From positions 1 to 31,997 of the IMG/VR virus record IMGVR_UViG_3300009024_000048: a stretch of DNA of 31,997 bases; one strand, given 5' to 3'. This DNA comes from a virus. Shown here piece by piece: positions 30,303 through 31,997 of this stretch. A model generated the notes under the pieces. The model saw nothing but the letters and a program-made list of their open reading frames with translations. It ran no database searches and was not told where the DNA came from. The position numbers and the translations under genes are program-made. Position 1 is the first letter of the stretch. Each line of letters opens with the position of its first letter.

Positions 30303-30320
30303 TTAAATAAGTTGGAATGG

Positions 30321-30349
30321 GGGGCATGGCTTAGGCTGTGCCCCTTTTT
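30321..30349 (+). terminator. Intrinsic terminator after nrdF
   Basis: A 10-bp stem (four G-C pairs at the base, two internal G-T wobbles) closes a TTAG loop (30321-30344) and is followed by TTTTT (30345-30349). It ends the nrd cassette 19 bases after the nrdF stop. It is the clearest intrinsic terminator I found in the window. Confidence 0.9.
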
Positions 30350-30411: not shown

Positions 30412-31872
30412 ATGAGGTTAATTAACAGATTATTTAAGCTTTCATTGTCAGCACTGTTAGCTCTTTTCGTAGTGCTTCTTTTTCCTATTTCAGCAAGTGC
30501 TAACCACCCCAACACGCCTACTAACCTATCCGCATCTGTATCTTCAGAGCGTAATATTACAATAACTTGGACCCAGGCAGCAGCTGTAGAAGGGCAATAT
30601 AAACCAGAAAGATATGCCATTGGATTTGGCATGAACAGTAGCTGGCCATACGGAGTTGCAACAGGCAATGTTGGCGGAGCTAACTCTCTTAACACCACGT
30701 ACACTTTTACCTGTAACTATCTTAAGCAGGTATTTCAATTGGATGATTGTGTGGGTAGTTTTAATTTTAAAGTTAGGGCTGACAATGACACTAACTCAGT
30801 CTACTCTGGTTGGTCTACAGCGGTATCCGTAACTTTAACCACACCAGTTGTATCACAAGCAGAGTACGATGCTCTTAATGCTCAGTACCAAGCCTTACAG
30901 ACTAATTACAATCAGCTTAAGTCAAGTTATGATAGCTTGCAGGCATCTTACGATGAGCTAAAAACAGCCTATATTAATTATCAAGACAGTGCAAAGGCAC
31001 AGATTGAACAAGATCAAATAACAATTGCTGGATATATCAAGAAGGTGGACTCGCTTACTGAGAGCCTTGCGACCAAGTCTGCAGAGCTAGAAGATAAAGT
31101 AAAGGAACTTGCTACAGCACAAGAATCAATTGCCACCCTTAAGGCTGACCTGGAAGATGCAAACTTTAAGCTGGGAATTGCAGAAGATAATTTTGCTACA
31201 GTTAGCAAAGAGCTAAAAGACGCACTAACTAGTCTGGCTAAAAGCAAGTCTGACTACGAGCTAGAGAAGGCTAAGTCCGCTGATCTTGGCAAACAGCTTG
31301 CAGCATCTAAGGCTAGGGTAGAAGAGCTTGAGGCAAAGCTAGCAGATGTAACCAAGAGACTAGATGATATGACAGCTAAGCAAGGATCTACTCAAAAAGA
31401 GCTAGAGGCAGCGAGAGCGACCATAGAAAGCCTAAAGGCCCAGCTTACAGCTGCCAATGCAACCATAGACGAGCAGAAGAAAAAGATAGAAGATTTACAG
31501 GCTATTCTAAATAACCCAAAGGCTGAGCAAAATCTAGCTTTGGCAGAAGAGGTTAAAGAAATTGCAATGGCAAAATTTCAAACTTCAGAAAAAGATTCAG
31601 AAGAATACCTGGTGGCTCTGGAGCTGCTAGCAGTTGCAGCAGAAGCAGATGACCCAGACTTGGCAGAAGAAATTGCTGTGATACCAGTCGTGGGTGCAGT
31701 AGCTGAACAGGTGCTAGAGGTTATGAACAACCTGGGAAATATTGGTGCTGACATTGCACCAGAACAGCGAGAGCGAGCAGAAGAGATTGTTGTTGCATCT
31801 GTTATTGCAGGAAATGTTGCAGCATCGGCAGGAGCATCCGCAGCTAGTGGAGCAAGGAGGAAAGTAGAGTGA
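30412..31872 (+). CDS. Secreted FN3 plus coiled-coil protein of unknown function
   Basis: This 486-residue protein has a classic signal peptide (basic N terminus, hydrophobic core at about 10-25, cleavage after SASA at residue 30). An FN3-like domain at about 33-142 has two cysteines (C101, C113) that may form a disulfide. A long coiled coil spans about 150-385 and opens with six heptads, each starting with Tyr and five with Leu at the fourth place. The end is Ala-rich with hydrophobic stretches and a basic RRK tail, perhaps a membrane-associating segment. The start is odd: AGGAG abuts the ATG directly and an in-frame TAG lies just upstream. It sits after a terminator, with its own -10 candidate. 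It is translocated by the host, so a surface, lysis or exclusion role is possible. Confidence 0.7.
   Translation: MRLINRLFKLSLSALLALFVVLLFPISASANHPNTPTNLSASVSSERNITITWTQAAAVEGQYKPERYAIGFGMNSSWPYGVATGNVGGANSLNTTYTFTCNYLKQVFQLDDCVGSFNFKVRADNDTNSVYSGWSTAVSVTLTTPVVSQAEYDALNAQYQALQTNYNQLKSSYDSLQASYDELKTAYINYQDSAKAQIEQDQITIAGYIKKVDSLTESLATKSAELEDKVKELATAQESIATLKADLEDANFKLGIAEDNFATVSKELKDALTSLAKSKSDYELEKAKSADLGKQLAASKARVEELEAKLADVTKRLDDMTAKQGSTQKELEAARATIESLKAQLTAANATIDEQKKKIEDLQAILNNPKAEQNLALAEEVKEIAMAKFQTSEKDSEEYLVALELLAVAAEADDPDLAEEIAVIPVVGAVAEQVLEVMNNLGNIGADIAPEQRERAEEIVVASVIAGNVAASAGASAASGARRKVE
30865..30990 (+). repeat. Six in-frame 21-base heptad units in the coiled-coil gene
   Basis: Residues 152-193 read as YDALNAQ, YQALQTN, YNQLKSS, YDSLQAS, YDELKTA, YINYQDS. 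Tyr is in position 1 every time and Leu in position 4 in five of six. The DNA units are diverged, so the array is old or under protein-level selection. Confidence 0.85.
31853..31859 (+). promoter_or_regulatory. Ribosome binding site for the membrane-protein gene
   Basis: AAGGAGG nine bases before the GTG at 31869 is a near-perfect Shine-Dalgarno and supports the GTG start of the last, partial gene. Confidence 0.75.
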
Positions 31873-31997
31873 AAAAGTTTATTAAAAAGATTTTCACAGG
31901 CATCAAAAATGTATTTGCTGACGTAGTAGCAGAGTCTTGGACCCTGGTAGGTATGTTTGTAGCTTGGATTGTTCTTGAAGGATCTGCCAGAGAAATG
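31869..31997 (+). CDS. Small membrane protein, 5' part (3' end outside window)
   Basis: This frame begins with GTG at 31869, overlapping the preceding stop as GTGA, with AAGGAGG at 31853-31859 nine bases upstream. The 43 visible residues have a basic N terminus (KKFIKKIFTGIKN) and one hydrophobic segment (SWTLVGMFVAWIVLEG) that reads as a transmembrane helix, followed by a Ser/Ala/Arg turn. The pattern is compatible with a holin-like or other small phage membrane protein. The coupling to the secreted coiled-coil gene suggests they work together, but the class cannot be fixed from a partial frame. Confidence 0.55.
   Translation, partial: MKKFIKKIFTGIKNVFADVVAESWTLVGMFVAWIVLEGSAREM

Follow-up and report, generated by a model that had tools for sequence, protein, structure and literature searches.

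The open reading frame at 30412-31872 (+) of the window, i.e., of the whole 31,997-nucleotide stretch of viral DNA analyzed here, was confirmed to encode a protein of 486 amino acids (protein A), which very probably forms a membrane-anchored display architecture together with a two-transmembrane (2-TM) partner, protein B, encoded from position 31869. In our best overall explanation, held at a probability of roughly 0.4, the two proteins are a display unit with a masking role. The parts of the unit, the A-B linkage and its fusions, the interchange of stalks and heads, the clustering with lysis genes, and the actinobacterial hosts are all read from sequence. The obligate 2-TM partner is the main point, and one beyond the reach of the original prediction, which had the letters of this stretch alone to go on. 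The window also lies inside a 69-kb IMG/VR contig (L007/G001; window position x is contig position x+11222), so that the DNA downstream of its end could be read. The features are as follows:

30319..30346, plus strand: terminator-like hairpin between nrdF and A (12 pairs, 7 GC, T run; the region has 3, where shuffles average 0.6)
30412..31872, plus strand: protein A, predicted exported, stalked ectodomain protein (ORF; identical copies on other contigs, one of them partial)
30412..30501, plus strand: signal peptide, residues 1-30 (...FPISASA/N), from hydropathy
30502..30849, plus strand: FN3 head domain, residues 31-146 (alignment A7; AF2; Foldseek against PDB and BFVD)
30853..31530, plus strand: coiled-coil stalk, residues 148-373 (periodicity; AF2 helices)
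30865..30990, plus strand: six Tyr heptads, five with Leu at position 4 (register count; no DNA repeat)
31537..31785, plus strand: conserved C-terminal domain, residues 376-458 (identity to relatives; profile search)
31786..31842, plus strand: hydrophobic segment, residues 459-477, a probable membrane anchor at the C terminus (equivalent in fused relatives)
31843..31869, plus strand: basic C-terminal tail of A, ASGARRKVE
31855..31860, plus strand: Shine-Dalgarno AGGAGG for B, within the 3' end of A (sequence)
31869..31997, plus strand: protein B, 2-TM partner of 66 amino acids, cut by the window end and complete at L007:9458-9658

Protein A and its two-TM partner

Signal peptides and transmembrane segments were called throughout from hydropathy heuristics, not a trained predictor. 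By this measure the signal peptide proposed originally was recovered, with a hydrophobic core at residues 10-28 (KD 2.45) and an end at ASA/N. The "Ala-rich basic tail" of the same prediction proved to be a 19-residue hydrophobic segment (KD 1.67) with a basic end (RRKVE) behind it. Together, segment 459-477 and the tail ending in RRKVE form a probable C-terminal membrane anchor. The full-length model of A was weak (pLDDT 67) and shows, at low confidence, a helix over residues 450-478; a net charge of +2 or more over the last 8 residues was found in 63 of 64 A proteins encoded separately from B. At the other end of the gene, AGGAG abuts the first in-frame ATG at 30412 without a spacer; translation of A may therefore initiate in an unusual way or at another site.

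The GTG start codon of B at 31869 overlaps the TGA stop of A. Homology of B to its relatives was seen in alignment A10 (38-53% identity) and by clustering, and its linkage to A held in both directions. Among 73 loci collected via A only and dereplicated by shared k-mers in downstream DNA, all 73 carried a B homologue, adjacent in 64 and fused in 9; of the adjacent ones, 48 begin within 0-4 nt of A's last sense base, and 30 overlap A by 4 nt. In a reverse scan via B only, which kept 80 loci and from which two lacking upstream DNA were excluded, A lay upstream in 77 of the 78 testable loci. The C-terminal motif of A (..VPVVGA..LGNIGADIAPEQRERAEE..; IPVVGA in the window protein) was recognized by pattern in 75 and by eye in two (L227 and L229), and was absent upstream of B at one testable locus, L236. 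The fused forms have three C-terminal hydrophobic segments, which fits a segment of A that crosses the membrane ahead of B; an exported A must make such a crossing ahead of the B hairpin, and the hydrophobic segment would do so. As judged from their sequences, the fusions argue for A and B forming one membrane complex.

Profile searches matched the B proteins of some relatives to phrog_29041 (E 5e-26 and 8e-10), a PHROG family without assigned function, to which the window's own B had no match. No holin profile in PHROGs matched B, and its 2-TM topology is compatible with a holin.

A family with interchangeable heads and stalks

Among the matches listed from IMG/VR, whose contigs are fragments, we counted 168 relatives of A through its FN3 domain, at least 345 proteins with the C-terminal domain of the broader family, and at least 595 relatives of B. 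The relatives of A are built alike: behind a signal peptide come at least one head and a stalk, then the C-terminal domain, a hydrophobic segment, and a basic tail; the window protein combines a signal peptide, the C-terminal domain with its hydrophobic segment and basic tail, and an adjacent B. Homology of its C-terminal domain to the broader family was established via L119-type and L199/L207-type intermediates: residues 376-458 are 55% identical to L207 (9e-11) and 56% identical to L208 (2e-10), and a profile of the L119-type C terminus finds the domain by hmmsearch with 28 bits (E 3e-10, Z=2).

Conservation at the level of single domains, across 168 to at least 595 viral relatives, contradicts the reading of A as a fragment of a host gene or a chance coiled-coil ORF, which we regard as barely credible. 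In its favor, the coiled-coil matches of A are generic; those in Pfam (HOOK and the like) lie under curated cut-offs, those in PHROGs (tape measure, SbcC) are likewise of the generic coiled-coil type, and both sets were dropped. Pattern scans of 84,980 genomes, restrictive enough that host homologues could be missed, returned nothing in the first scan and two MAG contigs in the second, both phage-like with the same lysis genes. These contigs (L193 and L194, filed under Gammaproteobacteria and Flavobacteriales) hold an A-B unit and actinophage-type lysis genes and are therefore probably misbinned phage.

The FN3-like domain of the original prediction was borne out by structure prediction. Modelled by AF2 from 42 sequences (pLDDT 92.1), the head has the fold of a seven-strand FN3 beta-sandwich: the top 50 Foldseek matches in PDB include FN3-containing chains (TM, query, 0.53-0.68), and those in BFVD include proteins from uncultured Caudovirales labelled "Fibronectin type III" or SUEL lectin, at 30-36% identity. 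Pfam fn3 was absent among the Pfam families listed for protein A, and phmmer against PDB, with the FN3 domain or the coiled coil as query, gave nothing useful. The head carries the conserved motifs PERYAI, GVATGNVG, and R.DNDT, and 16 columns of the alignment (including ERYAI, ATGN, and DND) are invariant over the 42 sequences, a pattern more suggestive of a conserved site than of a spacer. Cysteines C101 and C113 are not conserved among relatives (alignment A7), so the disulfide once considered possible is no feature of the family.

Tail proteins often contain FN3 domains, the BFVD matches include minor tail proteins, and tail-like genes lie just upstream of A in several loci, all of which would suit a virion or tail-fiber component that merely looks exported. 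We consider this improbable, given that 119 of 130 complete relatives have signal-peptide-like starts and that A has a C-terminal membrane segment and an obligate, sometimes fused, 2-TM partner; a virion protein would be assembled without an export signal, and A has both a signal peptide and a membrane segment.

Across the family the head itself is exchanged. In a set of 56 proteins, the heads recognized by Pfam were PA14 (14), fn3 (3), L-type lectin (2), GLEYA (2), and SUEL lectin (1), domains that by their sequence class appear to be of external glycan-binding or adhesion type. In pairs with >85% identical downstream DNA, median identity was 0.91 for heads and 1.00 for tails. Faster divergence of heads than of tails would also suit an intercellular adhesin that attaches infected cells, or debris of their membranes, to other cells or to surfaces and so brings new hosts near released virions. 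Yeast flocculin stalks are Ser/Thr-rich. Yeast PA14/GLEYA flocculins and Epa adhesins (the Flo family) have a signal peptide, a lectin head, a repeat region, and a C-terminal anchor, so that the plan of signal peptide, PA14/GLEYA or lectin head, and anchor is theirs too; in contrast, they are eukaryotic and GPI-anchored, the window protein has FN3 and not PA14, and no relation is implied (PMC8621652). Expression near lysis would leave little time to aggregate, and we think an adhesin unlikely.

The stalks vary as widely. A coiled coil had been claimed for A and extends over 226 residues (148-373), with 79 windows strongly hydrophobic at positions a and d against a shuffle mean of 3.6. The Tyr-Leu array was described exactly: Tyr stands at 152, 159, 166, 173, 180, and 187, and the first five of these heptads have Leu at position 4. 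Six Tyr in register appeared in 0 of 100,000 local-composition shuffles. Recent DNA duplication was ruled out as its origin, since the array contains no DNA tandem repeat and its heptads average 47% DNA identity. Its importance as an informative feature did not survive comparison, the array being one interchangeable stalk among several: a Tyr-Leu coiled coil was observed in this phage only, no relative examined had more than 3 Tyr in heptad register, and coiled-coil strength was 34 windows in the window protein versus at most 5 in B-anchored relatives. Relatives instead carry Thr/Ser-rich, Ala/Glu/Arg helical, Pro-rich, or acidic stalks, with 157-712 residues (median 308) between FN3 and C-terminal domain. 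Unlike sequences in one and the same position are as expected of a spacer. As a single continuous helix (0.15 nm per residue), the stalk of A would measure ~34 nm, long enough to span a Gram-positive wall.

Lysis genes, hosts, and the role of the pair

Upstream of A lie genes for NrdI, NrdE, and NrdF, the last 77% identical to NrdF of Gordonia phage GodonK and Mycobacterium phage PegLeg; the hairpin at 30319..30346 suggests that A begins a separate transcription unit. WhiB was found on 16 of 20 contigs tested, and as it is described as exclusive to Actinobacteriota and as a marker of actinophages (PMC10202952), actinobacterial hosts are indicated, by indirect assignment. At two other loci (L021 and L017), tail-like minus-strand genes stand divergently upstream of A, some with a different type of FN3.

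Downstream of B, a gene at L007:9670-9936 encodes an 88-amino-acid holin-like protein (PHROG 443 holin, E 4e-4), and an M23+LysM endolysin, assigned by eye, follows ~10 kb downstream; an Amidase_2 search for the endolysin of this phage found none. The holin-like protein also matches PHROG 26427, labelled "nuclease" (E 1e-24), a label that looks wrong because its homologues in relatives sit directly after B in lysis clusters. Past this gene, an ORF of 437 amino acids (L007:10824-12137), whose start resembles a lipobox (LAGC) and which contains an HEYFH motif, is a possible phage lipoprotein metalloprotease. Farther along (G001 51000-69378; L027), sugar- and cofactor-related genes were frequent by eye: carbamoyltransferase-like, 2OG-oxygenase-like, and sHSP-like proteins and nucleotide-sugar enzymes.

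Lysis genes recur beside the pair across the family. Downstream of it, 52 of 73 loci have an endolysin, a holin (two kinds were counted), or both; a homologous holin is present in 45 (median +186 nt), and an endolysin cluster in 33. These neighbors favor a possible reading that is a close rival to masking and ranks next after it, in which A and B are lysis proteins: B would be one among several holin-like TM proteins in the lysis cassettes of actinophages, and A would either regulate it from outside the cell or act as a spanin-like part, coupled to the wall, that helps to break the envelope or times its break. B also shows the 2-TM hairpin expected of holin-like proteins. For A, the one match to a spanin family (phrog_739) is weak (E 0.0095) and covers residues 141-197, which are coiled coil. 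Comparisons are available in mycobacteriophage LysF1a, with two TMDs and a predicted N-in-C-in topology (PMC13056207), and in the T4 antiholin RI, a protein with a cleavable signal peptide that is believed to sense superinfection (PMC8385771). LysF1a/b of mycobacteriophages and LysZ of Corynebacterium phages are actinophage membrane proteins of lysis pathways; LysZ differs in having 177 amino acids, one TMD, and a proposed N-in-C-out topology, whereas A is large, stalked, and probably anchored at its C terminus. Against a lysis role, the Pfam heads are external carbohydrate-binding or adhesion types with no peptidoglycan-binding domain listed, a separate holin often coexists with B, the pair also occurs away from lysis genes, and a variable stalk and head would be unexpected in a spanin.

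We tentatively favor masking of host surface glycans against re-adsorption. The signal peptide would export A, whose C-terminal hydrophobic segment would hold it in the cytoplasmic membrane with its Arg-rich tail inside the cell, associated with B as an N-in/C-in hairpin. A coiled coil in this case, the stalk would carry the head, here FN3, through the cell wall to the exterior. Made late, together with the lysis genes, the pair would present heads that bind envelope glycans of the very host that made them and so cover its receptors, and neither progeny nor competitors would then adsorb to dying cells or to debris from them. We infer the topology, surface exposure, and glycan binding of A in this scheme. 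Several observations weigh against masking. A search within 2.6 kb of the pair gave neither a holin nor an endolysin homologue at 21 of the 73 loci, the next genes being structural-looking in some. If masking acts in cis, some link to the receptor-binding protein of the same phage might be expected, but among the loci examined, which are partial genomes, no part of A recurred within its own locus. An origin of the heads as copies of the phage's tail fibers was rejected for this reason. The upstream neighbors in the window's phage are nrd genes, not tail fibers. The remaining probability we leave to roles of the A-B pair that we have not thought of.

Known systems and biological meaning

In INPHARED (50,697 phages), no cultured phage carrying the A-B unit was found. 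The one clear carrier was the metagenome-assembled Actinomycetia phage DSL-LC01 from Dishui Lake (OQ999401; PMC10611076); a second match, in a Pseudomonas phage, was weak (E 5e-3, residues 115-254). The 944-amino-acid DSL-LC01 protein, WJZ48438.1, annotated as a hypothetical protein, has an FN3 domain 41% identical to that of A and, fused in the one chain, the C-terminal domain typical of the broader family and a B-like 2-TM region; unlike A, it has a Thr-rich stalk and extra N-terminal domains. BLASTP of B against this protein gave no significant match, and the link was made via family alignments.

We know of no phage system of the A-B display design and of no sequence relation between T5 Llp and A. 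Llp is like the proposed A in being a phage-made, exported envelope protein that blocks re-adsorption, a works-like comparison only (PMC9586334); it differs as a small periplasmic lipoprotein of a phage with a Gram-negative host, and that this known receptor-blocking protein is far smaller than A counts against masking. A description of the A-B pair was not found in the literature searched (open-licence papers, fixed-word searches), and the pair seems to be undescribed so far. It resembles surface adhesins and exclusion proteins in outline only.

The original proposal of export and action at the host surface gains support from the signal-peptide-like starts, the lectin and adhesin heads, the stalk lengths, and the position beside holin and endolysin genes; A did not turn out to be a known virion fiber or a host gene fragment, and a predicted export signal is present. 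Of the roles then offered, lysis, exclusion, and release remain alternatives. The pair occurs on hundreds of IMG/VR contigs (a lower bound) versus one clear INPHARED case, itself metagenome-assembled, and the unit has thus stayed unnamed. In such phages, the slot adjacent to holin and endolysin genes often holds a variable putative ligand-binding protein, and its variable heads could serve to study which glycans matter. We can tentatively picture a dedicated phage display system in which a lectin-like protein, anchored in the membrane and reaching across the wall, comes with exchangeable heads and stalks and with its obligate 2-TM partner. If this is true, phages of abundant uncultured Actinobacteria place it on the infected cell during their exit program and so control who or what sticks to the dying cell. 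This offers a concrete hypothesis for how freshwater Actinobacteria phages treat the host surface at exit, and with Planktophila phages and their hosts now culturable (PMC10202952), testing it is within reach.
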